Part shown: one piece after another, positions 6,047 through 50,882 of the stretch
Layout: every line of letters starts with the position of its first letter
Position numbering within the stretch: the first letter of the stretch is position 1
Assembly (NCBI GenBank): GCA_902628525.1
Contig: CACOMZ010000004.1
Span: 1-64,000, forward strand
Source: an uncultured Pelagibacteraceae bacterium
Lineage (GTDB): Bacteria > Pseudomonadota > Alphaproteobacteria > Pelagibacterales > Pelagibacteraceae
Direction of reading: 5' to 3'
DNA: 64,000 bases
The notes under the pieces: model-generated
What the model saw: only the letters and a program-made list of their open reading frames with translations
Databases searched by the model: none
Told to the model about the DNA's origin: nothing
Position numbers and translations under genes: made by a program

Positions 6047-6079
6047 ATTTATAACACATTTAAAATATTAATGTAAAAT

Positions 6080-31736: not shown

Positions 31737-31842
31737 GCATACAAAATATAGTTTCGATGTTCACGTTTTGATTCACTTTTGATTCAGTTACAGACTCAAA
31801 ATACAACCTCTTGAGTGTATTCAATAAATAGGCTATAAATTA

Positions 31843-31857: not shown

Positions 31858-32253
31858 ATGAAACTAACAATCCCTTATTATTTACATAAAGCAGGCGCTG
31901 GTTTTCCTTCCCCTGCCACTGATTATATCGAAGAAGATATTGATCTAAACATGCACTTAATAAGAAATGTTCCAGCAACTTTCATCATCAGAGTTCAAGG
32001 TAAATCTATGGTCGATGTTGGTATTAATGATGGAGACTTATTGGTGGTTGATAAAAGTTTAAAGCCAAAAAACTTTTCAACTGTGATTGCAAATGTTCAT
32101 GACGAACTTGTTGTTAAAACTTTAGTTCAAGAAAGAGATAAAAAATTTTTAACCTCTGGATCTAAAGAATTTTCTGACAGAATTTTAATTAACGAAGAAC
32201 AAGATATTTTTATTTGGGGAGTTGTTACTTATGTCATCCATTCTACGTACTAA
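31858..32253 (+). CDS. umuD: UmuD-like S24 self-cleaving protein
   Basis: [53 protein letters not shown]. Confidence 0.93.
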
Positions 32254-33538: not shown

Positions 33539-33760
33539 ATGCAAAACCAAGAAATAGTTAAAATAATTGAAAACCTTAAAGGCCGAAAAAATTACGAGGA
33601 AAAAAGAGCCGCTAAATTAGGTTTTGCTTCTCTTTATGATTACTTTGAAGACAAGATTTCAAAGAAACAAAAGGCTCTTGAAGACGAACAAAAAGAATTA
33701 GAAGCTGCAAAAGCTGACGATCAGCCAAAAGCTGCTAAAAAAAGCTGCGGTTGCTGCTAA
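33539..33760 (+). CDS. Small coiled-coil protein with Cys-rich C-terminus (..KKSCGCC)
   Basis: 73 aa; ORF starts 31 nt after umuC on the same strand; charged helix followed by SCGCC tail. Confidence 0.6.
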   Translation: MQNQEIVKIIENLKGRKNYEEKRAAKLGFASLYDYFEDKISKKQKALEDEQKELEAAKADDQPKAAKKSCGCC

Positions 33761-33770
33761 TCAAAATTAA

Positions 33771-34784
33771 TCAAAAAGGTCTTGGATTTTGTGGATAGCC
33801 AAGATTTTCACAGGTTGCTGGTTTATCACCCTCACCAGATGGAATACACTTACTAACAGATATTGCTCCATGAACTTGAGAGTTATTAGTTAGTTGATTG
33901 ATAATTTCATCACAACCACTCCATAAATCATCACATTTATCTGCTTTTCCAACATTAGAATAACGAATGACCGCATCTTTAATTTCTAAACCTTGATCAG
34001 TAGCATCTGTCATATAATTTCTATAAGGCCCAAATTTAAATCTTACTTTACTTGCTCCTCCTAAGACATCCCCAAAATAACTAGATCTTAACTTTCCATC
34101 AATCCATAAATGTAAAAATCCATCTTTAGCCCATTTTGCATTAATTAATAAATTTACCCATTTCCCTCTTAAAGGAGAAAATCTATCATCAAGGTGAACC
34201 ACATAACCATCAAAATAGTATTGTTCTCCAGCCTCATTTGGTGCAGCTTTATAATTTGGTCCATTAAATATCCATATAATACTATTATTATTTATATTTA
34301 GTCCAGGTCCTACGGCCTTTTCTCCTTCCTTTCCGTAAATCATTTTAAAATCAAATAAAGACAAATTGTGCTTAGATGTATTTATATTTTTCGGAATGAA
34401 ATAGCCAACTCGATACCATTTAGTTTTTCCTTTTTTAGTTGTGTATTTTTTGGGTTCATGAATTTGGAAACGCTGAGCGAAACCTGGTCTTCCCCATCTG
34501 TTCCAATCGTACTTGTGGCCTATATCAGAATAACTTAATTTAAATTCAATTCCTTTTTCTGCAACGCCCATATTATCCTCAAGATTATCGAAAAATTTAT
34601 AAAGTCCAGGTCGATTAGGAACATTTCTACTATTAAATTCCATTTTATTGTCTGATTGAGCTTTAAGAACGTAAAAAGCAAAATCTTTTTTTTCTTTTTT
34701 AGTCATTTTTGATTTGAAATCACCTGAGTAAGATTGTGATGGAAGCAAAAGAAGAGATAGAAGAATAATTAAAATTTTTTTCAT
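33771..34784 (-). CDS. Secreted polysaccharide-lyase-like protein (heparin lyase I-like jelly roll)
   Basis: Signal peptide MKKILIILLSLLLLPSQSYS; WYRVGYFIPKN..GKWVNLLINAKWAKDGFLHLWIDGKLRSSYFG..FKFGPYRNYM. Confidence 0.75.
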   Translation of the reverse strand: MKKILIILLSLLLLPSQSYSGDFKSKMTKKEKKDFAFYVLKAQSDNKMEFNSRNVPNRPGLYKFFDNLEDNMGVAEKGIEFKLSYSDIGHKYDWNRWGRPGFAQRFQIHEPKKYTTKKGKTKWYRVGYFIPKNINTSKHNLSLFDFKMIYGKEGEKAVGPGLNINNNSIIWIFNGPNYKAAPNEAGEQYYFDGYVVHLDDRFSPLRGKWVNLLINAKWAKDGFLHLWIDGKLRSSYFGDVLGGASKVRFKFGPYRNYMTDATDQGLEIKDAVIRYSNVGKADKCDDLWSGCDEIINQLTNNSQVHGAISVSKCIPSGEGDKPATCENLGYPQNPRPF

Positions 34785-34785
34785 T

Positions 34786-36027
34786 TTACTTTGAAATTAA
34801 CATTGGGTGTAATGTAAATACTCTAGATGGCTCAGATTTAATTTTTGGTAAATATTTATTATTAAAAGTATCGTTGTATTTTTTCATAATTACATCTGAA
34901 TTTTTATAATCTGGAAATTTGCTTATATATACTATCAAATAAGTTGAAGATTTAATAAAGCTTTTTGATGGTTTTTCAATTGATCCCCATCGATCACCCC
35001 CGTCTGGACACGAGATTGCATATATTTGATTTGTTTTGGAGGGATCCATTATTCCTTTGATTACAAAATCTGCTCCGTTATGTAAACTTCTATTATCCAC
35101 ATTATAATTAAATAAATCTCGTCCCGTTGCATCCTTTAATAGAGAGGCCATCATTAAAAGATATCCATAACTATCAGCATTATATTTTAAACCCATACCA
35201 CTTCTTTGAGTATCTATAGGAAAACTACCATCTGGTCGCATATCATTGACTGCAAGCTTAACCACATCAATTGAATGTTGCACTGCTTTCAAGTCATTAA
35301 CCATTAATCCCCAAATCATAGTAATATAAGAAGTTAAATAAGCTTTATTATCTTGCCTATCCTTCCATCTACTTTTTGCAACTTTCTTTACTAAATTATT
35401 TAACCAAGGTCCTAAAATCTTTCTTTCTTCTGCATCAAACTTATCCGCAATAACAGCTGTTGTTGTTAAGATTGAATTTATTAAAACCATCATTTGCCAA
35501 TCGACAGGTTTTTTTCCCCATGAAACATTAATACCCTTTCTTAGAGCATCTTTTTGAGCCCAATCTAATAATACGGTTTTAATTTTATCTATGTTTTCCT
35601 CATTATTACTAGCTCTTCCTGCATATGCTGCCTCTTGAAAATAATTCATTGCAAAATTAGCTTCTGCTACTTCCTCACCGTAACTTTCATCTAGTTTTAT
35701 TTTCTCAAGTGGTTTTGGAGCTCTACTTAAATTTAGCTTATGCTTATCTTCATTAGATAATTTGTAGAAAGGTGATATCCATTTGTTTTTAATAAAATAT
35801 TCTTCTTTTTGTTTAATTAATTTATATCCAAAACCTTCACCATAAGTTGGGTGCTCAAAACACTCTTTTGCTTTATTGTAAGCATTCCATAAAGCTTTTG
35901 TTTTACTTTTTGATAAAACCTTTTTAGGTTTTGAGGTTAAATCTAAATCTTTATAATTATCAATACTTTTTGCACAAGCAACTTGTGAAAATATTAAAAT
36001 ATAAAAAATAATTAATATTTTTTTCAT
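34786..36027 (-). CDS. Secreted alginate-lyase-family-like (alpha-toroid) protein
   Basis: Signal peptide; KKPVDWQMMVLINSILTTTAVIAD..NLVKKVAKSRWKDRQDNKAYLTSYITMIWGLMVND..MRPDGSFPIDTQRSGMGLKYNADSYGYLLMMASLL. Confidence 0.72.
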   Translation of the reverse strand: MKKILIIFYILIFSQVACAKSIDNYKDLDLTSKPKKVLSKSKTKALWNAYNKAKECFEHPTYGEGFGYKLIKQKEEYFIKNKWISPFYKLSNEDKHKLNLSRAPKPLEKIKLDESYGEEVAEANFAMNYFQEAAYAGRASNNEENIDKIKTVLLDWAQKDALRKGINVSWGKKPVDWQMMVLINSILTTTAVIADKFDAEERKILGPWLNNLVKKVAKSRWKDRQDNKAYLTSYITMIWGLMVNDLKAVQHSIDVVKLAVNDMRPDGSFPIDTQRSGMGLKYNADSYGYLLMMASLLKDATGRDLFNYNVDNRSLHNGADFVIKGIMDPSKTNQIYAISCPDGGDRWGSIEKPSKSFIKSSTYLIVYISKFPDYKNSDVIMKKYNDTFNNKYLPKIKSEPSRVFTLHPMLISK

Positions 36028-36028
36028 G

Positions 36029-37306
36029 TTAATTAATAGGTGTTAAAATTACTTTAACATTTTCAGTTTTTTTTTCATAATTTTCGAGAATACCTAAGCC
36101 TTCGTAATGAGAAGATTTATTCTCTAACATTATTGTAATATTAGAGGGATCATCAGTATCTAAATCTAATTTACCTTCAATTTCTAGGTTATCTTGGTGT
36201 TGTTTAAGTTTAATATTTTTTCGATATTTATCTGAAATAATTTTGCTTGAGCCTAATTTCTCAAAAAAAAATTTACCGTTTTTAATATTAATCTTATCGG
36301 AAACTATAAACTCATCCTTAATTATTTTTTTTGTTTCTTTATTAATATCAACCCAGTACCAACTTAGTTTGTATCTTCCCTCAATATTTAAATTTGTTGT
36401 AGGTAGATTTTTACAGTCATGAAATAAAGCTGCTTTCTTACATTTTTTTCCACTTTTAAAAGCATCATAATAAACAACTTGAGTTTCTACAGTTTTAAAC
36501 CTTTTTCCATTATAAATGCCAAACCTAAAACTAGGTCCCATTTTTTTTCCATCTTTTTTTCTTTTAAGTGATTTTCCAATCGTTTTACCTTTTGATTGAT
36601 AAACTTTTTTATCATTAATCCATAAATGAATGAAGCCATCTTCTTTTCCAGTCCAATTTACATTAAGTAAAAAGTCATGCCACTTATTATGTATTTCAGG
36701 ATAAGGTATAATTACTTTATTTACATAACCTCCACATTTTTCAACACCATCTTTAACCAATAATACTCCTTCGGGATCTAAATGAAAAAGCAATGGAATC
36801 TCTGGGCAATCTTCATCAAAACCAGAAGAGTTAATTCTATCTAATTGCTCAATGTAAGCAGTAGGCATTTTAAATTGCCCCAAAATTGTATAAGCGGGTT
36901 TAATATGATTTGTACCTTCTGGAATATACATAGACCACGCATACCAAACATTTCCAACATGTCCTTTTGCATTTTTTGGATAAGCTCCATCAAATGAAAC
37001 TTCACTTCTTCCCGCTTTGTTAGGTCTATCGCAATCACGTCGATGACAATCACCATCTCTCATCTCAAAACGTAATGAATATTTTCCATCTCTAACAATT
37101 TTTGTTTCATATCTTAAGTTCCAAGGATTAGGAGCAATTCTTCCATGAGTTTCTATTTTTCCCCACACTCCTGTTTTCTCAGGCCACTTAATAAATTTTA
37201 AATGTTTAAAAACATAATTTTCATCTAAGTATTTTTTTGGAGGATCTTTTGCTTGTGCAGATAAGGATAAAATTAAAATAGATAATATAAATAAAATTTT
37301 TTTCAT
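36029..37306 (-). CDS. Secreted heparin lyase I-like polysaccharide lyase
   Basis: RYETKIVRDGKYSLRFEMRDGDC..RSEVSF; WYAWSMYIPEG; HDFLLNVNWTGKEDGFIHLWINDKKVYQSKG; FRFGIYNG; extra C-terminal region. Confidence 0.75.
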   Translation of the reverse strand: MKKILFILSILILSLSAQAKDPPKKYLDENYVFKHLKFIKWPEKTGVWGKIETHGRIAPNPWNLRYETKIVRDGKYSLRFEMRDGDCHRRDCDRPNKAGRSEVSFDGAYPKNAKGHVGNVWYAWSMYIPEGTNHIKPAYTILGQFKMPTAYIEQLDRINSSGFDEDCPEIPLLFHLDPEGVLLVKDGVEKCGGYVNKVIIPYPEIHNKWHDFLLNVNWTGKEDGFIHLWINDKKVYQSKGKTIGKSLKRKKDGKKMGPSFRFGIYNGKRFKTVETQVVYYDAFKSGKKCKKAALFHDCKNLPTTNLNIEGRYKLSWYWVDINKETKKIIKDEFIVSDKINIKNGKFFFEKLGSSKIISDKYRKNIKLKQHQDNLEIEGKLDLDTDDPSNITIMLENKSSHYEGLGILENYEKKTENVKVILTPIN

Positions 37307-37315
37307 ATAACTAAT

Positions 37316-38305
37316 TTAATTAGACTCAAGTCTTCTTAATTTTCTTTTTAATTTCTTTATTTTCTTTGAAATTTCAGCATCATAATTTTTTTTAGCTTTT
37401 GCAGTTAAAACAGCAATTTCGTCTTGAATTAATTCAGCTTCACTTTTTTTAATCTCAGTTTCGAGTTTATAATCTAATTCTAAACTTTTTTCTGATTTAC
37501 CAAATCTGATTTTATCATAATAAACAACCGTTGTTCCTCCGTCTCTACCTAATTCCCATATACGGTCTAGCCAGTTCCTATAGACGCCAATCTTTATGTT
37601 TGCTTTTAGATTTTTTGCATAAAAAGTTGGACCTTGATAATCATAAATCATTTTACCATCAGCCCATATTTTATAATAACCATTATCTTTATGAGACCAG
37701 TTAGCATTGACGACAATATCTGTCCATTTACCTATTACATCTACACTTTTACTCTCCTCCCAATCAGCTACTGCATTGAAAAAAGTATATTTACCATCAC
37801 CGTGATCAAAATTTGCAAGCTGCTGATATCCAGTTCCATCGTTGTGATCAAATTGAAATAACTTCAAACTTGAAGGACTTAAAAATTCTTGTCCTTCAGG
37901 AATATAAATTGACCAGGCATACCATTTTTTACCTTTATAAAATTTTTTTGTACCCATCTCTGCTCTTTCAGACTTACCATTTGTCCTTTCGCAATCATTG
38001 TTGGGTTGATTTTCATTAGCTAATTCTTTCTTATCAAATGAACCCCAACACTCACCTGGTCTAACTTCAAACCTAAGACTTAATTTACCATCTCTGACAG
38101 GATGACCATCCTCTTTAGATACAATTTGAATCTGATGATCTAAACCTTTCGTTCTTATGCTTACTTGCCAAACGCACCCTGTACCTTTTGATATATCTTT
38201 TGGTAAACAGAATTGTTCGTCTTTTTGATCTGAAATTGATTTTGCATTAACTGGTATATTCCAAAATAAAAATAGACCAAAAAAAGTTAATAAAATTTTT
38301 TTCAT
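37316..38305 (-). CDS. Secreted heparin lyase I-like polysaccharide lyase
   Basis: RDGKLSLRFEVRPGECWG; KWYAWSIYIPEGQEF; GKWTDIVVNANWSHKDNGYYKIWADGKMIYDYQGP; IKIGVYRNW. Confidence 0.78.
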   Translation of the reverse strand: MKKILLTFFGLFLFWNIPVNAKSISDQKDEQFCLPKDISKGTGCVWQVSIRTKGLDHQIQIVSKEDGHPVRDGKLSLRFEVRPGECWGSFDKKELANENQPNNDCERTNGKSERAEMGTKKFYKGKKWYAWSIYIPEGQEFLSPSSLKLFQFDHNDGTGYQQLANFDHGDGKYTFFNAVADWEESKSVDVIGKWTDIVVNANWSHKDNGYYKIWADGKMIYDYQGPTFYAKNLKANIKIGVYRNWLDRIWELGRDGGTTVVYYDKIRFGKSEKSLELDYKLETEIKKSEAELIQDEIAVLTAKAKKNYDAEISKKIKKLKRKLRRLESN

Positions 38306-39256
38306 TTAATTAAATAAAGTATCTACCTCAATTTTCTGGCTCTCTAATTTTTCACAACTGTAACCTAGTTGTTCTAATTTAAGTTTTGAGCATTTTTTTT
38401 TAGCATATCTAATTTCATCATAATAATTTATTTGTGTATGTGGATGAACACCGTCCTCTGCCATTCTATATATTCCAAATTGCATTGCTGAATTATTGCT
38501 CCATTCTTTTCTTTCATTAGGTGGTTTTATAGGTCCTTGATAATGGTAAACCAGTTTGCCATTGATCCACATTTTCAGATACCCGCTATCTTTTGAAGTA
38601 TAGTTAACATTCATTATGACATCATTCCATTTATCGAATAATTCATTTCTATCCATAATTTTGACGTTAGCATTCTCTTTCCAGCTAACTGAACAACCAT
38701 CATTACCTTTCGCGTTTTTTTTTTTATAAATTTCTGGTGCATTACAAGCCGTACGTCTTTGCCAATAAAGACCTTCTGGCCTTAGATCGGTATTAAACAT
38801 TGGTGCCCAATCACCGTCATTATGGATTTGCCAAATTGAATTATGGCCCTCAAATGGAGTATCAAATTTTTCTACATACCAAGAGATCGTATGCCAAACA
38901 TTTCCATTAAAAGTAAAAATTTTATCTATATTAGAGGGTAACAATTCATATCTTTCAGATCCAAAAGGGCCATTATTACAATCATCCCATCTTTTAGATG
39001 TTTTACCGCAACTTCCACTTCTTAATTCAAATCTTAAGGCAGTCTTTCCATACCTTACATTGTCAGTTATTTCTTGAATTGCGTAAGGCTTCCAATGTTC
39101 CATTATATAACTGAACTTCCATTTATGCGGCCACTTATAAAATACATCCCCTTTTGTTTTTATTACTCTATTTTTTTTGATTTTTAATGTGTTTGACTCT
39201 GCTGGAATGCTCCAGAATATACTTAAACTAAAAAATATTAATAAAATTTTTTTCAC
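38306..39256 (-). CDS. Secreted heparin lyase I-like polysaccharide lyase (start refined to GTG at 39256)
   Basis: VRYGKTALRFELRSGSCG; WHTISWYVEKF; DKWNDVIMNVNYTSKDSGYLKMWINGKLVYHYQGP; MQFGIYRM; signal peptide begins VKKILLIFFSLSIFWSIPAES, so the track start at 39298 is over-extended. Confidence 0.78.
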   Translation of the reverse strand: MKKILLIFFSLSIFWSIPAESNTLKIKKNRVIKTKGDVFYKWPHKWKFSYIMEHWKPYAIQEITDNVRYGKTALRFELRSGSCGKTSKRWDDCNNGPFGSERYELLPSNIDKIFTFNGNVWHTISWYVEKFDTPFEGHNSIWQIHNDGDWAPMFNTDLRPEGLYWQRRTACNAPEIYKKKNAKGNDGCSVSWKENANVKIMDRNELFDKWNDVIMNVNYTSKDSGYLKMWINGKLVYHYQGPIKPPNERKEWSNNSAMQFGIYRMAEDGVHPHTQINYYDEIRYAKKKCSKLKLEQLGYSCEKLESQKIEVDTLFN

Positions 39257-40563
39257 TATCCTCCAAAAGCAACTTGACTTGAATAATGAACATAACATCC
39301 ATCTTCATGCTTATCAGTACATTTTTTCATAGCATCTTCAATAGCTTGCTCTTTACTGTCTGTTCTAACTTTAATTAAAACTTTTTCATCTAATTTATTT
39401 TTTACTATAGCGATATACTCAAATTTTTTTTTAGCTTTTTTTTTTGTATCAATCCATTTTCCTGGATAAACGCATTTGTTATCAATCAAAGCCCATCTTG
39501 CAGTAAAATTTTTATTTTTCTCATTTTTAATAAACTTCTTAACATTTTTATTAGCAAATATTTTTTCAGTTAATTTTGAGTCTTTATAAGCATAAAGATA
39601 TGCTGGAACCCAAGAATAAGTTGGATTATCAATAATTTGCTTTTTATAATCTCCAATAGCTGATTTATTTTTTTTAGCCCAAGGATAAATTAGACTATTA
39701 TCTAAATCTGCATCTAGCATAAATTCAACTGCTCTGTGTATTTTATCATTAAATTTTTCATTAAATGGGTCTCGCTCAGAGTCTTTTAATAAATATGCTA
39801 AAAACATTATAATATTTAATGTTCTTCCAGTATAGAAAATAGCTCTACTCCCTCTCGCTGCTTCAACTGGTAGTACAATATGTTTATCATTTAAAATCTC
39901 AAATTCTTTATCTAAATATTTATTAAATATTTTTTCACCTTTAGATAAAAGTTTCTCGTCTTCAAAAATACCTCCAGCTAAAATAAAACTTCTTGCAGAA
40001 TTTAAACTATGATTATTTAGACCTTGAGGTCTTCTTGAAACATCGTTCTTCTTCACTGATTTGATTGCCCATTTTTTAATTAATTGATTTGTCTTTTTTT
40101 CAATAGGAATTTTTTCTTTAGCTACCCAGTAAGCAAACAAGACATGGCTTAAAATATGATTATTAATAAATGTTGCTTCATACCAATCATTATTATCTGG
40201 TCCCCCATAGTTTTTCATTATTGCTTTATTTTCTGCTAAATATTTGGCGTGCTGAACTATTTTTTCACATATTTTTTTGTCACCTAGTAAACAAGACATA
40301 GATGCCTCTCTATATCTTGTTTCTATCCAATATATATTTTTTAAAAGACCTTCTTCTCGATAGGTTGCTCCACTTTCAAATTTAAAGTCTAACTTAAGTT
40401 TTATAAATGTATTTTTGTAAACATCATAATCCATATTTGAAAAACGATTTTTTTTGGGTGCACTACATTCACCAGTTGCTCTATCAAGATTAAAACTTTT
40501 TGCCTGAACACTTGAGTTTGAAAATAAAATTGTAAATAAAATTAATAAAAATATTTTTTTCAT
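39256..40563 (-). CDS. Secreted alginate-lyase-like (alpha-toroid) protein with C-terminal DUF4189-like segment
   Basis: Signal peptide; GGPDNNDWYEATFINNHILSHVLFAYWVAKEKI..RRPQGLNNHSLNSARSFILAG; C-terminus YIAIVKNKLDEKVLIKVRTDSKEQAIEDAMKKCTDKHEDGCYVHYSS. Confidence 0.65.
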   Translation of the reverse strand: MKKIFLLILFTILFSNSSVQAKSFNLDRATGECSAPKKNRFSNMDYDVYKNTFIKLKLDFKFESGATYREEGLLKNIYWIETRYREASMSCLLGDKKICEKIVQHAKYLAENKAIMKNYGGPDNNDWYEATFINNHILSHVLFAYWVAKEKIPIEKKTNQLIKKWAIKSVKKNDVSRRPQGLNNHSLNSARSFILAGGIFEDEKLLSKGEKIFNKYLDKEFEILNDKHIVLPVEAARGSRAIFYTGRTLNIIMFLAYLLKDSERDPFNEKFNDKIHRAVEFMLDADLDNSLIYPWAKKNKSAIGDYKKQIIDNPTYSWVPAYLYAYKDSKLTEKIFANKNVKKFIKNEKNKNFTARWALIDNKCVYPGKWIDTKKKAKKKFEYIAIVKNKLDEKVLIKVRTDSKEQAIEDAMKKCTDKHEDGCYVHYSSQVAFGG

Positions 40564-40604
40564 GTATTTGTAATTAACATTGAAAATTTATAATGACTTC
40601 CTCT

Positions 40605-41567
40605 TTATTGTTTCATTTTTATTTCGGGTAATGGCTTATTCCATTTAATTGATTTAGAAATTTTTTTACCATGTGTTTTATCCCTCCAGGAGCTTTTTTT
40701 AAACCTTACGTGGGAAATTGAATCTTTTTTATCTGATGAGTAAGAGCATTTATCTTGACTCAATATTTCTTCACATTTATCGCTAAATCCAAATTCTTTT
40801 ACTGTTACTGATTGAGTTGGGATTGTTTCTAAAGACATTTGCTCAAGCCATCTATAGAAACCCCACTTAAAAGTATACCCATTTCCTATTGTGAAATTAG
40901 GGCCATAAACCTCAAAAATTCTTTTATCATCAAGCCATCCTATAATTTCACCGTTTTCTTTTTTTGAAGCCAAAATTTTAAGGCTTAGAGTTCTATAATC
41001 TTTATAATCTTTGACATAACCAAGATAAAATTTATACCCAATTTTATCAAAATTAGTATTGTCTGGATCTCCTTGGAGATAAAATACTTCTTTTGTAAAA
41101 TTTATCTGATGAGCAAGTCGATTATCAGAATATTGGAATTTCATCCATGGTAACAGCCTAGAATTACCCTTGTTAGCAATTACTTGAAATAAAGAACCAC
41201 CTAAATTATTTTTAATTGGAAATTCATTTAATTTAAATTTGTATTTTACATAAACTGGTTTTTTAAATTTTCTAGGTTTTTTTGCATTTGCCATCTCCCA
41301 TCTCTGATTTCTCTCGCCAGTTCTTCCCCAATCATCTTTATGTCCTTTAAACTTTGTATCCAGAGTAATTTTAATAGCTTTTCCATTTTCATCTTCAACA
41401 ATTGATAGAGCCTTTTTTTTAGATATTGATCTAGTATCATTTACTAGCTCTTTTTTTGCTTTACCGATTAAAATCTCTTTTTTTAAAAATTTGTAAGGAT
41501 TGTCCTTTGAATAAGAAACATTTGATGACAGTAAAGTTAAAATAATAATTATGAAAATTTTCTTCAT
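40605..41567 (-). CDS. Secreted heparin lyase I-like polysaccharide lyase (divergent copy)
   Basis: Signal peptide; GERNQRWEMANAKK; YVKYKFKLNEFPIKNNLGGSLFQV; WLDDKRIFEVYGPNF; FKWGFYRWLEQ. Confidence 0.68.
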   Translation of the reverse strand: MKKIFIIIILTLLSSNVSYSKDNPYKFLKKEILIGKAKKELVNDTRSISKKKALSIVEDENGKAIKITLDTKFKGHKDDWGRTGERNQRWEMANAKKPRKFKKPVYVKYKFKLNEFPIKNNLGGSLFQVIANKGNSRLLPWMKFQYSDNRLAHQINFTKEVFYLQGDPDNTNFDKIGYKFYLGYVKDYKDYRTLSLKILASKKENGEIIGWLDDKRIFEVYGPNFTIGNGYTFKWGFYRWLEQMSLETIPTQSVTVKEFGFSDKCEEILSQDKCSYSSDKKDSISHVRFKKSSWRDKTHGKKISKSIKWNKPLPEIKMKQ

Positions 41568-41577
41568 TTACCTTTTT

Positions 41578-41625
41578 TTATATTAGAAGAAAAATTAATG
41601 GAATAACAACAAACAATTTTTTCAT
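41578..41625 (-). CDS. Orphan 15-codon signal-peptide-like ORF (MKKLFVVIPLIFLLI*)
   Basis: Read by hand on the minus strand; 5' of the 320-aa lyase-like gene; no mature domain follows. Confidence 0.3.
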   Translation of the reverse strand: MKKLFVVIPLIFLLI

Positions 41626-41743
41626 ATTTTAAATTTTTTAAAACGTTTGTTGTCCCTTGATTTAAAAGTCAGCACAACCAGACTTTGTATAATTAATATT
41701 AACTATTAAGATTGTGATGTCAATTGTAAGAGTTAGTGTTAAT

Positions 41744-42760
41744 TTAGAATTCTAAGATTTTTTTAGATCCATCACTGTATGTAAATTCTACTTGTTTTTT
41801 TGAAATACTTTTTATTGATGTAAATCCATCATATTCAGCAATGAATTCATTTAATTTCTTTCTACCTTTTTTGCTCATTTTTTTTCCTGGAGCATTCACA
41901 CCAACATCAATAATTAATTCTGCTCCATTTAAAAATGCTTTTACCCAAGCTTTGACTGGAGCACCACAAGTCATAGCTTCAGTTAACCATATAGGTTTAT
42001 TGACATCTGCACTTTTTAATAAGGCTGCAAATTCATCTACCCAAAGCTCTCTATCACACTGTCCATCTGGACCACTTATATGGTGGATATTTGCGATATC
42101 AAAATGATCTTTGATTTTTGGCAAAGCAGATTTCCAAAATTTTTTGCTTTCTGGAAACATTCCTGCAGCACCTGCCATTACAATCACTGCATCTGGCTGC
42201 TTTTCCTTAATTACCTTAGAAGAAAAATTAAATATTTCTACAAAGTCTTCCTCACTTCCTTTAAAGAACATTTTAAATTCTGGTTCGTTCATAATATCCC
42301 AATATATAATTGGTTTAGTTAAACCAGGCATATCATTTGCACCATCTCCATCATAACGATCAACTAATTGTAAAAGAAAGTTTTTGTAGTCATCCATGGA
42401 GCAAGGTTTACTAAGATACTTTGTAAATTTTTTTCCAAAAGGACTTCTTGCTTTTTTTCTTTTACAAGATTTTTGCTCCCAATTAGCGTGAGGCCAGATA
42501 GTAGCTAAAATTGTTTGATTGTGTTCTTGAGCATAAACAACATATTTGTCTGCCTCTTCCCAAGTAAACGTTCCTTTTTCTTTTTCGATGTGGTTCCAAA
42601 TAAAAGGTCCTGGATGAGGTCTAACCCATTGACCATCTTTACCTCGCATTTTCTCATCACGCATTTCGGTTAACTCTCCAAATCTAGAGTTTGCAAATGA
42701 TGTATTTGAAATCAGGTTTAAAAAAACAAGTAATAAAATAAATCTAATATACATTTTCAT
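41744..42760 (-). CDS. Secreted clan GH-A-like (TIM-barrel) glycoside hydrolase
   Basis: Signal peptide; acid/base-like IIYWDIMNEPEF and nucleophile-like PIWLTEAMTCG; family not determinable by eye. Confidence 0.68.
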   Translation of the reverse strand: MKMYIRFILLLVFLNLISNTSFANSRFGELTEMRDEKMRGKDGQWVRPHPGPFIWNHIEKEKGTFTWEEADKYVVYAQEHNQTILATIWPHANWEQKSCKRKKARSPFGKKFTKYLSKPCSMDDYKNFLLQLVDRYDGDGANDMPGLTKPIIYWDIMNEPEFKMFFKGSEEDFVEIFNFSSKVIKEKQPDAVIVMAGAAGMFPESKKFWKSALPKIKDHFDIANIHHISGPDGQCDRELWVDEFAALLKSADVNKPIWLTEAMTCGAPVKAWVKAFLNGAELIIDVGVNAPGKKMSKKGRKKLNEFIAEYDGFTSIKSISKKQVEFTYSDGSKKILEF

Positions 42761-42762
42761 TA

Positions 42763-45228
42763 TTATTTAGGATCTGGACCTGGACCTGGATCACCTGGAG
42801 GAGGGGCACCTGGTTGACCTGGAGTACCTGGACCTGCTGGATCACCTGGAGCGCCTGGACCTCCCATTGCTCCTTCAACAGCTCCACCAATATCACCCAT
42901 GGCACCGCCCATGCCGCCCATGTCACCGCCCATCGGACCCATGTCTCCCATTGGACCGCCTTCAGGACCGCCCATCGGACCCATGTCTCCCATTGGACCC
43001 ATATCTCCTGGACCAGCTGGACCTCCAGCCATTGCACCTGCCATAGCTCCACCCATTGTTCCAGTCATTCCATCTTGCATAGCGCCTCCCATGGCTTTAC
43101 CCATTTCGCCTTCGCCCATGCCTTCCATTCCCATTGCTGCTCCCATTGCATGAGAACCCATAGCTGAGGCTGCTGCTCCTTGAGCAGCCATAGCTGATCC
43201 CATTGCGGCACCTGCTAATCCTCCTGCTCCTTCAGCTGCCATTGCAGCACCTGCTACGTTTCCAATTGCTGCTCCTGGGTCAACTCCTGTTCCCATTGCA
43301 GCAGAGACTTGTCCTAAATTCATTCCACCTTTCATGCCACCTTCTAATCCTTCAGGTGTTCCACCCATAATGTCTCCTAATTTTGCACCTTCAGGACTTC
43401 CCGCTAAGCCCATGCTTGCTGCCATTTCTGGATTCATTTGTGAGTCTAAATTCATTTCTCCCATTCCAACCATTCCACCACTCATCGCTGCTAGACCCAT
43501 ATCGCCACCTTCCATACCCATGGCTCCACTTAATCCTTTCATTCCTTCAGCTCCCATTGCAGCCATCGTTCCTTGATTGACTAATCCAACTTCCATCATA
43601 TCTCCCATTTGACCAGCTGATAAATTTCCAGACTTAGCCATTTCCGCAACACCTTTAATTGCTTTACTACCTAACCCAGCAACGTTAGTTGACATAATTG
43701 TTGATACATCCATACCTGCAATTCCAGCTGCACCCATACTTGCTACCATTCCAGGAGTTAAACCTGTTTGCATTGCCATATCAGCCATTCCTAATTTGTC
43801 CATTTCTCCAACTTCCATTCCTGTCATGTTTGCCATTGCCTCACCCATGTCAGCTTTAGACATATTTTCCATAACTCCACCCATCATTGTACCTGCTGGA
43901 TTATTTGGATCTAATGCTAAACCCATACCTACAGCAGTCATTCCTTCAGGTGGTGCCATTGCACCAGGTAATCCACCGGCTAAAGATGGTTTTGCCATTA
44001 CCATTGCACCCATCATCATTCCAGATTCACTTATATTTTCTGGCATTTCTAAAGCTTCAGGTGCAGTCATATTATTTGCAAAAGAGTCCTTCATCTCCAT
44101 ACCTTTTTGAATAGCGTTCTGTTCTTTTGGTGCTTTACCAGATATGGCTTGACTTATCATTCCAACTGTTCCTGACATTGCAGAAGTTATTCCAACATCT
44201 GGATTAGCAAATGCTGTTTGCAATGTTTGAGCCATTTGATCCATTCCCATCTCTTGCATTGCTTTTCCAATTTCTTGCATTCCCTCTATACCACCCATGC
44301 CTTCTGCCATTTCAGTCATGCCTTCCATCCCGATACTTGTCTCCATACTTTTCATCATTTCTTCGCCCATACCTTTTGCACTCATCGTGGCTACTATTGC
44401 ACCAGTCATTGATTGACCCATTTGGCCCATCGTGTCAGGATTAGCTGCTAAGGTTTCTAGTGCAGCAGTTGCGGCTCCAACTGGTAATGCGTTTAATGCT
44501 CCTGCCATCATTGCTGGATTCATTCCCATTTCGGCAACATTCATTGAAGCAAAATCTCCTGGGTTAAAATTCGCCATATCAAAATTAGCTGAACCAGTTA
44601 TAGCTTCCATATCGACTAAACCTGATTTTGATAACCCTTCCATGGCAGCACCCATCCCAATACCTTGAGCATCTAGAGATCCCATCATTCCTTTTGCATC
44701 AAATCCAGCAGCACCTAGAGCGTTCATCTGCCCTGCCATTTTTTGTAAAGAGACAACTTTTCCAGCACCCATTTGGCCAGCAATACTTGACAAAGCCGCC
44801 ATTTCTTCTGGAGAAAAATCATTTGCAAAATCTATTCCTGTCATGTCTAAAGCTGTTGGGTCTGGAATGGCACCTAGAGCCATATCAGTAACGCCTTCAA
44901 CTAGAGACATTGCCTGAACTGCAGAGGTAATATCTCCTTTTTCTAAACTTTTTGTAGCAAATTCCATTGCGCTCTCTGCTTGAGCTATAGATACATCTAA
45001 AGCTTTTCCTATATCACTTTTTGCTTGGCCTAAAGCTTCTGTTGCACCTGAAATATTTTCAGCAACCTTACTTGCATCTGCTGCTAATTGATCTGCTGCA
45101 GCTTGAGCTGAATTTCCTGCTGCTTCTGAAATTCCTGACATAGCAGCTATATCATTTGCCTTAACAGAAAAGTTTAGGAATAAAAAAAATAATAAAAAAA
45201 TTTTAATTACAATTCTCAAAATTATCAA
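42763..45228 (-). CDS. Secreted Met/Gly/Ala-rich protein with collagen-like C-terminus, unknown function
   Basis: Hydrophobic N-terminus MIILRIVIKIFLLFFLFLNFSVKA; about 115 Met by hand count in 821 aa; C-term GPAGPGDMGPMGDMGPMGGPEGGPMGDMGPMGG..GPGAPGDPAGPGTPGQPGAPPPGDPGPGPDPK; TTG start overlapping the upstream TGA. Confidence 0.85.
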   Translation of the reverse strand: MIILRIVIKIFLLFFLFLNFSVKANDIAAMSGISEAAGNSAQAAADQLAADASKVAENISGATEALGQAKSDIGKALDVSIAQAESAMEFATKSLEKGDITSAVQAMSLVEGVTDMALGAIPDPTALDMTGIDFANDFSPEEMAALSSIAGQMGAGKVVSLQKMAGQMNALGAAGFDAKGMMGSLDAQGIGMGAAMEGLSKSGLVDMEAITGSANFDMANFNPGDFASMNVAEMGMNPAMMAGALNALPVGAATAALETLAANPDTMGQMGQSMTGAIVATMSAKGMGEEMMKSMETSIGMEGMTEMAEGMGGIEGMQEIGKAMQEMGMDQMAQTLQTAFANPDVGITSAMSGTVGMISQAISGKAPKEQNAIQKGMEMKDSFANNMTAPEALEMPENISESGMMMGAMVMAKPSLAGGLPGAMAPPEGMTAVGMGLALDPNNPAGTMMGGVMENMSKADMGEAMANMTGMEVGEMDKLGMADMAMQTGLTPGMVASMGAAGIAGMDVSTIMSTNVAGLGSKAIKGVAEMAKSGNLSAGQMGDMMEVGLVNQGTMAAMGAEGMKGLSGAMGMEGGDMGLAAMSGGMVGMGEMNLDSQMNPEMAASMGLAGSPEGAKLGDIMGGTPEGLEGGMKGGMNLGQVSAAMGTGVDPGAAIGNVAGAAMAAEGAGGLAGAAMGSAMAAQGAAASAMGSHAMGAAMGMEGMGEGEMGKAMGGAMQDGMTGTMGGAMAGAMAGGPAGPGDMGPMGDMGPMGGPEGGPMGDMGPMGGDMGGMGGAMGDIGGAVEGAMGGPGAPGDPAGPGTPGQPGAPPPGDPGPGPDPK
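42925..42999 (-). repeat. Two perfect 33-bp direct repeats, 42-bp period, in the collagen-like coding region
   Basis: accgcccatcggacccatgtctcccattggacc at 42925-42957 and 42967-42999. Confidence 0.95.
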
Positions 45229-45887
45229 TTACCCTCCTCAATTTTCTCTTGTGCTTTTATAGTAGCAGCTCTTTGTGCATTTACTTTTGCAGTTGCAATT
45301 TGTTTTTTTAAATTTGCTAAAACTGCTGCGCGCTCTGCTATTTCAGGTGTTAATTTTTTTGCCTTCTTTTTCTTTTTCTTTTTATTTTTTTTATGGGCAG
45401 CATAAAGCATTTTACCTGTTGCCCAGAATTTTAGAACTGCCTCTGATGATTTAGCTTTTGGTGAGATGTTTAAGCTCATTCTCATGGCCTCTCTTCCTTT
45501 TTTAATACCTTCTAATGTTTCAACACTTGCGTTTTTGTCATTAAGCATCTCATTAAATAAAGCTTCAAAATAAGCCATGTCTCTGATCATGTGATGTTGA
45601 TATTTATTTAACTCACCTTTTCCTTTAACAAATCTTTGATAAACTTTTCTTCCAGCTTCACCTTGCTTTTGTTTACTTTTAATTAAGCTTTCATGAAACA
45701 TTCCCTCAGGGTAATCAATTTCTTCATATATAAATGCTTCTGGTCTTTCGCTTATTGGCCAGTCTTTTAGCTTCTCGTACTTTTTACAATAAGTACAATC
45801 TTTCTCTTTTTCTTTTTTTGCAGCTTCTAAATTTTGATTTGTAAAAAATATTATTATGAAAATAATAAATAAATTAAATATATTTAT
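45225..45887 (-). CDS. Secreted Lys-rich protein with N-terminal CxxC, unknown function; probable non-canonical start
   Basis: Track ORF 45225..45701 extends in frame upstream to INIFNLFIIFIIIFFTNQNLEAAKKEKEKDCTYCKKYEKLKDWPISERPEAFIYEEIDYPEG-MFHES..; no ATG/GTG/TTG/CTG in the extension. Confidence 0.6.
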   Translation of the reverse strand: MNIFNLFIIFIIIFFTNQNLEAAKKEKEKDCTYCKKYEKLKDWPISERPEAFIYEEIDYPEGMFHESLIKSKQKQGEAGRKVYQRFVKGKGELNKYQHHMIRDMAYFEALFNEMLNDKNASVETLEGIKKGREAMRMSLNISPKAKSSEAVLKFWATGKMLYAAHKKNKKKKKKKAKKLTPEIAERAAVLANLKKQIATAKVNAQRAATIKAQEKIEEGN

Positions 45888-46083
45888 GGCAGATTTACTG
45901 CCAAACTCGCCTGGCTAAACCTTTCATACTTAGACTCTATTCTTATATTAAAAGTAAAAAAAGAAATCTTTTTTAGGTCAATATTAGCTTTTTAAATTTT
46001 TATTCAATTAAAACGAGTATTTAAATATTTATTTTTTTTATGCAAATTAATCTAAATAATTTAAAAATCCTAAGAACCAGAAT

Positions 46084-47238
46084 TTATGTTTTAAATAATT
46101 TATCAGATAAATTTTGTAGTTTTTCTCCCCAAAAAACTTCTTTTTGAATTCTTTTAAAATCAATATCAAATACTGTTGCCATTGCAGATGCATAAATTGA
46201 TCTTGCATCGATCGTTGAATTTAAATCTCTTCCTTCAAATAATTCTTTTTTTTTCAAACCTGGCCAATCAGTATATATGTCTGATTTTTTTATTAAACCG
46301 CCACTCATAAGAACTGCTGTTCCATAACCATGCTCAGTACCATTGCTACTATTCTGTTTAATTGTTCTTCCAAATTCTGTTAGTGTTAGCACAAGAGTAT
46401 TTTCAAACTCGTTTCCCATCGAAGCTTCAAGTCCTTTTAAAATTCTATCGTATTCTTTTAAACAATCTGCATGAGCCCCATCTGTTGCACCTTGGGCAGC
46501 ATGAGTGTCAAAACCACCCACCTCAAAAACTGCTACTCTAGGTCCGTCAATTTTTGCTAATTGTTTGCCTGCTTTAAGAGATAATGCTGAATTTTCTGTA
46601 TAGCCATAACCTCCATCTTTCCTGCTTCTAATTACTTTAAGTGTTTCACTTAAATGTGTTTCTGAATGACTATCAAATTCATTATTTATTAACTCTAAAA
46701 TATCTTTCGCAGGCATTGCTTTTCCAACAGGGAAATAATTATCATTCATTGGAACCCCTCTAATTAATAATGGCATTGGCAATGATAAAGCTAAGCCATT
46801 GCCAGTTAACCCTGCTAACTTCATTCCCCTTCCTAGCCATCCTGTTTTAATTGAATATGGAATTTTTCCTCCAGACTGCATTAAATTTTGTCCATCAAAA
46901 TGAGAACGTCCTGTATATGGAATACTGGTTGCATGAACTGCAGATGCTAAATTTTTATCCCATAAAATTTTAAAAGTTTGTAAAGCAGGATGAAGGTCGA
47001 AATCTGAGGTTAAAGAGAATGTTTTATCAAGATTAATTTTACTTCTAAGTTTTTCAAATTTTTTATCACCCTTTACTGGGATTGCGCATAGTCCATCCAT
47101 TCCTCCCTCAAGCATTATAATTACCAGATTTTTTTTTGGACCAGTACTTGCAAAAGAAGGTAATCCAAAACCTGCAAAATATAATGAAGTCACGGCTGTT
47201 GTTTTAAGAAAATCTCTTCTGTTAATTTCTAATTTCAT
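46084..47238 (-). CDS. DUF1501 protein (alkaline phosphatase/sulfatase-like superfamily) with Tat signal
   Basis: Twin-arginine start MKLEINRRDFLKTTAVTSLYF; NLVIIMLEGGMDGL; VAVFEVGGFDTHAAQ; LVLTLTEFGRTIKQNSSNGTEHGYG. Confidence 0.9.
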   Translation of the reverse strand: MKLEINRRDFLKTTAVTSLYFAGFGLPSFASTGPKKNLVIIMLEGGMDGLCAIPVKGDKKFEKLRSKINLDKTFSLTSDFDLHPALQTFKILWDKNLASAVHATSIPYTGRSHFDGQNLMQSGGKIPYSIKTGWLGRGMKLAGLTGNGLALSLPMPLLIRGVPMNDNYFPVGKAMPAKDILELINNEFDSHSETHLSETLKVIRSRKDGGYGYTENSALSLKAGKQLAKIDGPRVAVFEVGGFDTHAAQGATDGAHADCLKEYDRILKGLEASMGNEFENTLVLTLTEFGRTIKQNSSNGTEHGYGTAVLMSGGLIKKSDIYTDWPGLKKKELFEGRDLNSTIDARSIYASAMATVFDIDFKRIQKEVFWGEKLQNLSDKLFKT

Positions 47239-48668
47239 GCTTTTAAAAAATCTGGATGATTAAACAACAAAACTTGTTTGTCGCTAAGGTTATTTTTTTT
47301 ATTTAGGTAAGACATAATTTTTTTTGGATTATCAAAGTTTTTTTCTACAATCTTATAAAAGAATTCATTATTATTATTTTTAGGCTTATTAAAAAGATAA
47401 CTTTCTTTTGCATAAACTAACCGTCTTATTAAAAGTTCTGGTGACAACCAATCATTTGAAATGTCTGACCAACCATTTGGTTGCTTTGCTTTATATGGAT
47501 GATGTCCAATTCTTTTTAGTAAACGCTCAGGATATCTTTGACCTCTAGTTGGCTTGTTTCCTAATTCATATAAATCCATCAAAGTAGAACTTGGAGGCCA
47601 TTGTAAATCTGAAATTTTAGCAACTTGGATAAACCAATTTTCTGGGTTTTGAAATTTTTTATATTTATCATTATATTCAAAAGCAACTTTTATAGCGGCT
47701 TTGTGGATCTCAGTTAAATGACCGTCAGATTTTTTAAAAGCATCGATAATTGGTTTTTTCATCTCTTTTGTTGGTTCGTCTGTAATTAAATACCTACATA
47801 ATCTTTCAGCAACAAAATCCCTGCAATTTGGATGATTAACAAGATCTTTGATTACGGCTGATAATGCCTTTTTTCCTCTTTTGTATTCTTTTCCTAAAAC
47901 TTTTTTCTTACCAGGCTGATGATATTCTGAATTAAACCAAATATCTCCTGTCTCTAAATGTTTTTTACTCCATCGTCTTTGCCAACCAGTCATTATATAT
48001 GCTAATTGAATTATATCTTCTTGAGTGTATCCGGCTTCAGGAGACACTGTATGAAGCTCTAAAAGTTCTCTAGCATGATTTTCATTAATTGTTGCAGGTT
48101 CTTTTTTTTTCCTTCTCCAATCTTTAAAAGCTGTAGCACTTTTGGGGCCGGCACTTTCACTGTTATCTAAATGATGTATCATTGCCCAAGAAGTCGTAAC
48201 GTCATAAACCATTTTTTCAAAAGTTTGATTTAAATTTGGTCTAATTATTTCTCTTTGATAAGGGCCTGTTGAATATTGGGGCAGAAAATCTTTATCACTT
48301 ATAGTAAAAAAATTTCCCCAAAACATCCATAACTTTGTCAAAACTGGGCTTTGACTATTGATTGCCTCATTATGTCTAACAGTTATCTCTAAGGACTCCC
48401 AAAATTTTTGACCAGTTTTATGCCTAAGAAGGTCTCGGTGTGTTTTATAAAGAATTTTACTATCTTTATACTTTTTTCTTAAAACTTTTCTATCAGTGTA
48501 AACCCATTCTCTATACAGGAGCCTTAACTCTTTTTCAGAATTTAATCTACCTTTCCAAGATAATTTTGGTACATTGTTTAGCTGATTAAGGGCCCAATTT
48601 AACGGGTCTGATGGTACCTCCTCATTAGGACCAATTCCAAAAGCAACTTTTCTGAAAAAACTTTTCAT
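47235..48668 (-). CDS. DUF1800 family protein
   Basis: ENHARELLELHTVSPEAGYTQEDIIQLAYIMTGW; HHPYKAKQPNGWSDISNDWLSPELLIRRL; ATG overlaps with the DUF1501 gene. Confidence 0.9.
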   Translation of the reverse strand: MKSFFRKVAFGIGPNEEVPSDPLNWALNQLNNVPKLSWKGRLNSEKELRLLYREWVYTDRKVLRKKYKDSKILYKTHRDLLRHKTGQKFWESLEITVRHNEAINSQSPVLTKLWMFWGNFFTISDKDFLPQYSTGPYQREIIRPNLNQTFEKMVYDVTTSWAMIHHLDNSESAGPKSATAFKDWRRKKKEPATINENHARELLELHTVSPEAGYTQEDIIQLAYIMTGWQRRWSKKHLETGDIWFNSEYHQPGKKKVLGKEYKRGKKALSAVIKDLVNHPNCRDFVAERLCRYLITDEPTKEMKKPIIDAFKKSDGHLTEIHKAAIKVAFEYNDKYKKFQNPENWFIQVAKISDLQWPPSSTLMDLYELGNKPTRGQRYPERLLKRIGHHPYKAKQPNGWSDISNDWLSPELLIRRLVYAKESYLFNKPKNNNNEFFYKIVEKNFDNPKKIMSYLNKKNNLSDKQVLLFNHPDFLKA

Positions 48669-48686
48669 ACCCTTTTGCTATTTATA

Positions 48687-49559
48687 TCACTTTATATTTT
48701 CGATATCATGTATATTTGATAAAGAATTATTAAATTCCTCATAATTTTCTCTCAACGCTAGGCTTGAAATTGAATAAATCATTATCAATAATAAAATTAA
48801 AGGTACCATGGTTATAATCGATGCATTACTTTTAATTAATAAAATATAAAAAATTATAAAAAGAGCTGAACGAATTAAAACAGTTTTTCTAAAAACACTT
48901 ATAATTGAAAGTGAATGTTTTAATAAATTAAAAAAACTCATCTTTGATGGTCCAAAATATCTTTTTGCTCTAATAGATGGCATTGAAATTAAATCTTTTT
49001 CAATTTTTTTTAATGAGCCAGAAAAACTATTCCATGTTGCTTTTTCCTCTAGCATTTTTTTTACTGTTGATTTTGAAAGACAAGTAAAATTTCCAAATTT
49101 GATTGATTTGCCAGTAAAAGCTAAAGTCAAAAACTTATGGAATTGATAACATATTTTAAAAAATACACTTTCTGATCTTTTAACTCTTTCACCAACAATT
49201 GATTTATCTCCTGATTCTCTTGATATTTTTATAAAATCTTTTATTTCTTGAGGTCTATCTTCTCCATCTCCATCCATTGGAATCACATAATCGAAATCTT
49301 TTTTTTCATAAATATATTTTAGCCCCGATGCAATGCACCTAGTATGCCCTCTATTTTGTTTCATGTTTATTAGCTGAATAGATTTGATATTTTCGACATT
49401 TGGGTAATTATCAACAATCTGTTCTGACGAAGCATCATTAATAATAACAAGAGATATTTCTGAGTCTAAGTCTTTTACTTCACTATTTATATGATCAATT
49501 AATAATTTTAACGATTTTCTGTCATTATAAATTGGAATTAAAATTATATATTTCATCAA
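48687..49559 (-). CDS. GT2 family glycosyltransferase (DPM1/polyprenyl-phosphate type)
   Basis: YIILIPIYNDRKSLKLLIDHI; FDYVIPMDGDGEDRP; C-terminal TM helices. Confidence 0.85.
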   Translation of the reverse strand: MMKYIILIPIYNDRKSLKLLIDHINSEVKDLDSEISLVIINDASSEQIVDNYPNVENIKSIQLINMKQNRGHTRCIASGLKYIYEKKDFDYVIPMDGDGEDRPQEIKDFIKISRESGDKSIVGERVKRSESVFFKICYQFHKFLTLAFTGKSIKFGNFTCLSKSTVKKMLEEKATWNSFSGSLKKIEKDLISMPSIRAKRYFGPSKMSFFNLLKHSLSIISVFRKTVLIRSALFIIFYILLIKSNASIITMVPLILLLIMIYSISSLALRENYEEFNNSLSNIHDIENIK

Positions 49560-50882
49560 CTACTTTGATCCTACACAAACATTATCGAGACACATATAAT
49601 ATTCCAATTCACCTAGTTTTTCTTTTTTAATATTTCCTTCCCAAACTGGTCTTGATTTTAAATGATATGATAAATTTCCTGCATTCCATTCATCCCCCAA
49701 AACTACATTTATTGGTGAGTTAAATTGCTGATCCCAGGCATATTGAGTTTTTATTGCAATCTCTTTACCTTGGTAATCAGTTCTTTTATCATCTTTGGAA
49801 ATTGAAACATAAGCATAAAGTGCAGGTGACAGAAAAAATAAAAAAATAAATCCAAACATAAAATGTTTTAATTTTTTAATATTAATTTGGGCTTGAAGCA
49901 AATAAACAAATAGTGTCCCTATAAATAAATAAAAAGGAGGCATCCACATTGTTCTTATTTTAGATCCAGTAAATAAAGATGTTAAAAAAATCAAAAAAAT
50001 TGGTAAAATATTAATCGCTAACAAAAAAAGACATTTTTTATCTTTAAGGTTTAAATTAAATTTAATTTTTTTTATTAATATCCATATTAAGATTAAAAAA
50101 GGAATTAATATTCCTATTTGTTTGAGTAAAAATGTTAAAGGAAACTTTATATGATGATGAAAGCTTGAAACTTCCATTCCAGTTCTTGTTAATCCATAAG
50201 TAATCGTTATAAAATCATTATTATTTAACCAAATTAAATGTGGAACTAGGACAACTAAAAAAATTTCTATAGCTAATAAATATTTAAAATCGAATTTTCT
50301 CTCTTTTTTTATGAAAATTAAAAAAATAAATAAAAAACTTATAGAAACTAACAAATATATAAATAAGTATTTTGATAAAAAACCAATTGCAGCAAAAAAT
50401 CCAACAAACAAACAATCTAAAAATTCAATTTCTTTTTTACTATAAATTTTCCAAGAATAATAAACTGTTAGTGACCAAAAAGGTAACTGGCAAATATTCA
50501 CGTTAAATTCTGGACTAGTAAAATTAAAAAAATAAATTGACTCAATAAGAAAAACTGAAATTAAACTTAATAAATTATTTTTTAGAATTTCTTTAGACAG
50601 TTTAAAAACATAATAAAAAGAAATAATTACAAAAATTTGACTTAGTAGATAAAACGCCCAATCCTGTGAACCAAAAATTTGAAAAAAAACTTCCGGAAAA
50701 AAAGCACTCATCGGTGGATGTTTATTAAAACCCCAATCTAAATTACTTCCCCAAGCTAAAGCTTCGATTACATCTAATGGCAAATTATGATTGGTAAGTG
50801 ATGGAATCAAAGTCCAAAAAATTAGATGTGTTGTAACAAAAATATAAAAAACATTATCTATATTTTTGTTATTAATGGTCAT
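49560..50882 (-). CDS. ArnT/PMT-like integral membrane glycosyltransferase
   Basis: Multi-TM; LPLDVIEALAWGSNLDWGFNKHPPMSAFFPEVFFQIFG; coupled to the GT2 gene. Confidence 0.83.
   Translation of the reverse strand: MTINNKNIDNVFYIFVTTHLIFWTLIPSLTNHNLPLDVIEALAWGSNLDWGFNKHPPMSAFFPEVFFQIFGSQDWAFYLLSQIFVIISFYYVFKLSKEILKNNLLSLISVFLIESIYFFNFTSPEFNVNICQLPFWSLTVYYSWKIYSKKEIEFLDCLFVGFFAAIGFLSKYLFIYLLVSISFLFIFLIFIKKERKFDFKYLLAIEIFLVVLVPHLIWLNNNDFITITYGLTRTGMEVSSFHHHIKFPLTFLLKQIGILIPFLILIWILIKKIKFNLNLKDKKCLFLLAINILPIFLIFLTSLFTGSKIRTMWMPPFYLFIGTLFVYLLQAQINIKKLKHFMFGFIFLFFLSPALYAYVSISKDDKRTDYQGKEIAIKTQYAWDQQFNSPINVVLGDEWNAGNLSYHLKSRPVWEGNIKKEKLGELEYYMCLDNVCVGSK

Follow-up and report, generated by a model that had tools for sequence, protein, structure and literature searches.

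SAR11 bacteria are usually treated as small-molecule specialists with streamlined genomes. Among their variable loci, the hypervariable regions tabulated for HTCC1062 lie at sites other than umuC-dksA (PMC2217521), and the O-chain cluster is located between rRNA genes, with no SAR11 capsule known (PMC11898729). In other bacteria, DUF1501/DUF1800 pairs are co-operonic with chitin synthases (PMC5122149). The umuC-dksA interval, of which no description was found in an incomplete literature search, is considered here in a 64,000-nucleotide stretch (the window) of contig CACOMZ010000004.1, from an uncultured Pelagibacteraceae bacterium (assembly GCA_902628525.1; genome G000 below). The gene map confirms the claim of a first-pass annotation, made from the sequence alone, that 14 successive minus-strand genes (33771-50882) stand between lexA/umuD-umuC and dksA, both on the plus strand. 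That annotation suggested that the block as a whole may make, remodel or shed a glycan of the cell's own, a view not supported by synteny, which revealed a constant core and independently gained and lost cargo. The interval is probably a flexible island of Pelagibacteraceae, composed of a fixed envelope module and swappable, mostly exported cargo.

A DUF1800 profile scan gave 181 relatives, of which the best 80 loci, all SAR11 and nearly all Pelagibacteraceae, were mapped; these come from related strains, so that their counts are not independent. The four genes on the dksA side, encoding a PMT_2 membrane glycosyltransferase (PMT), an ArnC-like GT2 enzyme, DUF1800 and DUF1501, are the constant core of the site: they are strictly contiguous in 66 of the 72 loci showing all four, and PMT adjoins dksA in 62 of 62. 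Content on the umuC side varies among loci and comprises lyases, urease, sulfatase/TRAP genes, FG-GAP proteins or nothing. Ten of the 45 loci that are closed to umuC carry no cargo and 12 the urease operon only, the others holding PF14099 lyase-like, alginate-lyase-like, GH-A-like, FG-GAP and unassigned genes; the complete genome G012 has a bare core. The commonest cargo is a complete urease operon (about 33 of the 80 loci, e.g. L037:3381-8217), and urease has been reported in a SAR11 genus (PMC12636525). PF14099 genes occur in 27 loci, the GH-A-like gene in 17, a sulfatase plus TRAP cassette in 14, alginate-lyase-like genes in seven and the Met-rich gene in five. All 34 PF14099, eight alginate-lyase-like, 17 GH-A-like and five Met-rich genes have the orientation of the core strand. 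In the nearest relative, L056, whose DUF1800 is 93% identical, the cargo beyond the GH-like gene is largely different. The sulfatase of the 14 loci is accompanied by an opposite-strand TRAP pair and by FAH, VOC and FAD-monooxygenase genes (L058:12613 onwards, L039), and from its gene content looks like an aryl-sulfate or aromatic-acid cassette.

The features of the window locus are as follows.

31858..33508, plus strand: lexA/umuD-like gene and umuC, conserved left flank of the island
33539..33760, plus strand: CCsmall, a small Cys-tailed protein, a frequent convergent gene at the cargo/umuC border (39 homologues)
33771..34784, minus strand: PLa, PF14099 lyase-like (E 8e-9), D-F-K variant; the commonest lyase cargo, with 20 homologues at the umuC-dksA site
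34786..36027, minus strand: AL1, PF05426 alginate-lyase-like (E 2e-17), His of N-N-H replaced, aligned with the 7fhu group
36029..37306, minus strand: PLb, PF14099 lyase-like (E 3e-30), Q-x-K variant
37316..38305, minus strand: PLc, PF14099 lyase-like (E 1e-23), Q-x-D variant
38306..39256, minus strand: PLd, PF14099 lyase-like (E 5e-21), canonical R-x-E and Q-x-H; start probably GTG at 39256
39256..40563, minus strand: AL2, PF05426 alginate-lyase-like (E 2e-10), full N-N-H/R/Y residues by alignment with 7fhz
40605..41567, minus strand: PLe, PF14099 lyase-like (E 2e-8), Q-x-I variant
41744..42760, minus strand: GH-A/GH10-like exported protein (PF00331, 20.3 bits, cutoff 22.1)
42763..45228, minus strand: Met-rich protein, 821 aa, signal peptide, collagen-like tail; 114 Met, no Cys/Trp/Tyr
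45225..45914, minus strand: CxxC/Lys-rich exported protein, in frame +1 relative to the leader ATG, without canonical start
45910..45927, minus strand: invariant leader of the CxxC gene, ATGAAAGGTTTAGCCAGG, with candidate +1 frameshift site GCC_AGG_C
46084..47238, minus strand: DUF1501, core gene 4, Tat-exported (twin-arginine translocation), RRxF motif (PF07394, 1e-23)
47235..48668, minus strand: DUF1800, core gene 3, without signal peptide (PF08811, 2e-71)
48687..49559, minus strand: GT2, ArnC/GtrB-like polyprenyl-phosphate sugar synthase, core gene 2 (PF00535, 4e-13)
49560..50882, minus strand: PMT_2 (ArnT-like) membrane glycosyltransferase, core gene 1 (PF13231, 5e-30)
50961..51476, plus strand: dksA, conserved right flank

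Cargo is gained, lost and exchanged at this one site. PLa is 98% identical to the copy in L127, with a synonymous divergence (dS) of 0.05, in a pair of loci whose umuC and DUF1800 genes have dS values of 0.27 and 1.43, respectively; AL2 is likewise 93% identical to the copy in G024 (dS 0.19), with a DUF1800 dS of 1.30. The ratio dN/dS in the tested cargo pairs is about 0.03 to 0.23, and the cargo is therefore maintained rather than decaying. Together, the contiguity of the core and purifying selection on the cargo indicate that the block structure exceeds chance. The site thus combines the conserved flanks, variable content and recombination that mark SAR11 flexible islands.

Internal spacing follows the same divisions. 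Gaps of a few bases had been noted for most of the block; the majority are indeed 0-41 bp, but two longer gaps interrupt it, one (176 bp) upstream of 40605-41567 and the other (about 156 bp) upstream of the CxxC leader, and both coincide with evolutionary borders of the core, the Met-rich module and the lyase set. A promoter-like TTGACA-16-TAATAT match lies at 41723-41696, inside the 176-bp gap; a promoter scan of the locus gave no excess of matches over shuffles. Pfam found no integrase among the block genes, and no tRNA stands at the island border, the sole tRNA in the window being at 59187; such elements are frequent at island borders but not required. At the left end, CCsmall (33539-33760), which ends CGCC and is convergent to the cargo, is kept in 39 loci as the umuC-side border, and the SAR11_0636 small RNA (RF01827; window 31719-31808) adjoins the left flank. 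A glycine riboswitch lies at window 5964-6049. Identity as a defence system was rejected when PADLOC gave no match, as was phage origin, since no viral contig was found encoding relatives of PLa, the Met-rich protein, the GH-A-like protein or DUF1800.

The core, with its ArnC/ArnT-like pair and DUF1800/DUF1501, fits envelope glycan modification. PMT has nine predicted hydrophobic segments, and GT2 ends in two transmembrane segments and has ArnC (9hwj, 2e-13) as its closest solved structure. By this resemblance the GT2 enzyme would charge a lipid carrier with a sugar, which the ArnT-like membrane enzyme would then pass on in the periplasm. DUF1501, which belongs to the alkaline-phosphatase clan of Pfam, has the RRxF Tat motif in 76 of 76 homologues, as well as TEFGRT and GT[ED]HG in all 76. 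DUF1800 shows a hydrophobic N-terminus or signal peptide in none of 77, an exception to the mostly present signal peptides of the first-pass annotation, which stand for the lyases, the GH-like and Met-rich proteins and the Tat-type DUF1501. Adjacent PF08811 and PF07394 genes, with the Tat signal on the PF07394 member, identify the DUF1800-DUF1501 pair, and the two proteins would act on the envelope; as a speculation, DUF1800 could be a cytoplasmic partner of DUF1501 or a Tat hitchhiker. A PDB sequence search returned nothing meaningful for DUF1800, DUF1501 or PMT, and the AlphaFold models of DUF1800 (pLDDT 47) and of the Met-rich protein (pLDDT 35) were too poor for a fold search. Some islands have two DUF1800-matching genes (L131, L152, L153), with two DUF1501 genes in L153, and are possibly tandem cores; L152 appears split.

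Downstream of the core and in its orientation, recombination between strains inserts, removes and swaps single genes or short cassettes; in G000 they amount to a CxxC/Met-rich/GH-like module and seven polyuronate-lyase-like proteins. Variation in cargo, rather than a fixed pathway, would be the point of the locus. The family assignments made at first pass were borne out by Pfam profiles, which place PF14099 five times, PF05426 twice, DUF1800, DUF1501, GT2 and PMT_2. The PF14099 proteins (33771, 36029, 37316, 38306 and 40605) score 34.7-105.9 bits against a cutoff of 29.9, and the PF05426 proteins (34786 and 39256) 64.4 and 41.3 bits against 22.2. For the five proteins labelled heparin-lyase-I-like, which are PF14099 members, a profile built from them matches in the PDB only the glucuronan lyase 2zzj (PL20, E 2e-15), the sole solved relative found, and the set is better read as PL20-like. 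Similarly, what had been called a GH-A-like hydrolase is GH-A-like only, because its GH10 match is below the cutoff. The PF05426 proteins match PL5-type lyases in the PDB, enzymes whose catalytic residues are N-H, R and Y. Within the active-site strands of PF14099 (R-x-E, Q-x-H, G-x-Y), PLd has all residues, whereas PLa reads D-F-K, PLb Q-F-K, PLc Q-F-D and PLe Q-V-I. All lyases, and the GH-like and Met-rich proteins, begin with a Sec-type signal. No secretin was seen in carriers such as G000, G001, G004, G024 and G031, from which a periplasmic or surface location of the lyases is probable, and there they probably cut acidic (uronate-rich) glycans.

Lyase-like genes are not confined to the island. 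Among 197 sampled genomes of the order, PF14099 occurs in 70 (about 36%), DUF1800 in 31 and both in 17, and the presence of PF14099 in genomes without DUF1800 makes this cargo independent of the core. So wide a distribution in SAR11 is unexpected: the 70 genomes often carry several such genes, and trade them, despite the small-molecule-specialist view. Solitary PF14099 genes stand between hisH and hisA in both G000 itself (L048:9663-10580, contig C3) and L052; others follow hisF (L054), come shortly after rpoA with one 147-aa gene between (L044), or neighbour maf and aroE (L049). Their solitary occurrence in housekeeping operons argues against a dedicated glycan-assembly operon.

What the lyases are for may be answered in several ways. 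They might cleave oligosaccharides rich in uronate, of algal or bacterial origin, that enter via porins, the small unsaturated products being imported by ordinary transporters as a cheap added carbon source. This tentative possibility is consistent with the export of the lyases, one of them PL5-like with intact N-N-H/R/Y, with rapid gain and loss, which fits niche adaptation, and with the addition of sulfatase plus TRAP in some islands, although that cassette, with its FAH, VOC and FAD-monooxygenase genes, looks aromatic. A PF07940 heparinase II/III-type gene elsewhere in G000 also favours it, but nearly the whole genus has that gene (18 of 23 genomes), so it is not linked to the lyases. A further difficulty is catabolism: as had been noticed at first pass, the block has no outer-membrane receptor, sugar kinase or monomer catabolism gene by Pfam, nor has it a sugar transporter, and it is thus not a polysaccharide utilisation locus, in which receptor and sugar catabolism genes accompany the lyases. 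A TonB receptor is absent from G000 and from 22 of the 23 same-genus genomes searched, being present in one, and the GH88 unsaturated-uronyl hydrolase occurs in one of 61 genomes. Since G000 is 68% complete, its own absences are weak, and the genus-level figures are firmer.

On the original proposal, the block would act on a surface glycan of the cell's own making (O-chain or glycoprotein), remodelling or shedding it; phage receptors might be changed in this way, for instance. This is possible but rather unlikely, and synteny does not favour it. The resemblance of the core to envelope glycosylation, the position of the lyases on the core strand without import genes, and a weak co-occurrence of DUF1800 and PF14099 accord with it, but the lyases vary independently of the core and are found also in his or ribosomal operons, and the O-chain cluster is elsewhere, in bacteria with no known capsule (PMC11898729). 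Independent scattering of the genes among relatives, on which that proposal would founder, was largely found for the lyases, though not for the core. Finally, in five of the seven lyase-like proteins a canonical residue of the catalytic site is missing, and orthologues share the replacements (PLa D-F-K, PLb Q-F-K), as would be expected of glycan-binding or decoy proteins that have lost catalysis. That most are of this kind seems improbable, however, given that PLd and AL2 are canonical and that the glucuronan lyase 2zzj itself has Q-F-I, such that Q-x-H is dispensable for lyase activity.

Some findings, in addition to the kinship of the mapped strains, weigh against the preferred reading of a fixed envelope module with swappable exported cargo. 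GT2 does not reach the NCBIfam ArnC equivalog (63.9 bits, cutoff 529). Full canonical active-site residues are restricted to PLd and AL2, and because of their substitutions some of PLa, PLb, PLc, PLe and AL1 may be inactive or differ in role. Lastly, PF14099 and DUF1800 co-occur slightly above chance (Fisher odds ratio 2.6, p 0.023), whereby some functional link between core and lyases is possible.

The remaining cargo forms a rare module, whose order is CxxC, Met-rich, GH-like both in the window and at all other loci seen to carry the Met-rich gene; the GH-like gene directly follows the Met-rich gene whenever the latter is present. Nine further homologues of the Met-rich protein have 107-119 Met and, after the signal, no Cys, Trp, Tyr or Arg. 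The SAR11 background frequencies are 2.4% for Met, 1.0% for Cys, 1.8% for Trp, 3.8% for Tyr and 3.4% for Arg. Met columns in the alignment are 85% invariant, as conserved as Gly, and an excess of Met spacings of 3-4 suggests helices. The protein has no Pfam or NCBIfam match. Of 337 genomes sampled across the class, only its own genome was found to encode it; the CxxC leader is present in nine of 397 order genomes.

Read back from its end, the CxxC frame stays open as far as a TAG, and it has no ATG, GTG or TTG ahead of the signal peptide. Just upstream of every CxxC homologue seen is ATGAAAGSTTTAGCCAGG (with ATGATA in one homologue), in a frame that ends within 6-10 codons; the CxxC coding sequence is in the +1 frame, and the shift site is conserved across homologues. 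That the leader is invariant and offset by one frame is suggestive of programmed +1 frameshifting at GCC_AGG_Y. Both codons are rare (GCC 3.2 and AGG 3.4 per 1000). In the complete relative G012, a scan of 30 tRNA loci, which did not extend to two further tRNA genes, showed Ala UGC only and Arg UCU, ACG and UCG, with no tRNA-Arg CCU among them. Selection on the first CxxC codons, in contrast, does not appear coding-like and may speak against frameshifting: the pooled ratio of nonsynonymous to synonymous polymorphism (pN/pS) is 1.56, over only 11 columns, between leader and signal peptide, and 0.13 in the mature part. A non-AUG start and an RNA regulator are possible alternatives. The GCC-AGG codon pair was seen once against 3.0 expected, too few to judge depletion. 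An Rfam element in the leader was rejected, with no match even at E 5, and so was a GGCAG/CTGCC hairpin as an essential feature, which has one compensatory change, is not above shuffles and is lost in L143, L144 and L147. It is conceivable, if doubtful, that these genes form a SAR11 system of a new kind. Production of CxxC would then require a programmed +1 frameshift at GCC_AGG_Y, five codons into the gene, and its partner, the exported helical Met-rich protein, would serve as a sacrificial oxidant sink or a Met-based matrix on the cell surface, in an organism unable to reduce sulfate. SAR11 is known to depend on reduced sulfur (PMC5069961), and for such an organism the Met-rich protein is a costly investment of it.

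Even minimal SAR11 cells thus seem to keep a swappable extracellular toolkit. If the lyases are active, they would link the most abundant ocean heterotrophs to acidic glycans in seawater or to their own surface. The umuC-dksA locus offers a defined place at which the gain from exported enzymes can be tested, and the CxxC leader a compact candidate for bacterial +1 recoding.

Several parts of the locus resemble described systems. The candidate shift site resembles the +1 sites of Ty1 (CUU_AGG_C) and Ty3 (GCG_AGU_U) in its Ala codon without its own tRNA and its slow AGG followed by C or U, so that the Gly codon GGC or GGU is the +1 codon, but it is bacterial and stands at codons 5-6 of the gene (PMC5009743). 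The seven lyase-like proteins belong to the families of the PL20 glucuronan lyase 2zzj and the PL5 alginate lyases (7fhu group, A1-III), from which they differ by low identity and several active-site substitutions. As in the ArnC-ArnT and GtrB-GtrC pairs, a GT2 with two C-terminal transmembrane segments is accompanied by a GT-C membrane transferase, although, unlike ArnC, the SAR11 GT2 falls below the equivalog cutoff. As in the chitin-synthase-linked pairs, DUF1800 adjoins a Tat-type DUF1501 beside a GT2 family enzyme and is horizontally mobile, whereas the SAR11 GT2 is short and ArnC-like and has a PMT_2 partner (PMC5122149). Finally, the site shares with SAR11 hypervariable regions 1-4 and the O-chain cluster its variable content between conserved flanks, recombination and many surface or exported functions (PMC2217521, PMC11898729), but it differs in keeping a fixed core, and what is added to this core are exported hydrolases, not genes for making O-chains.

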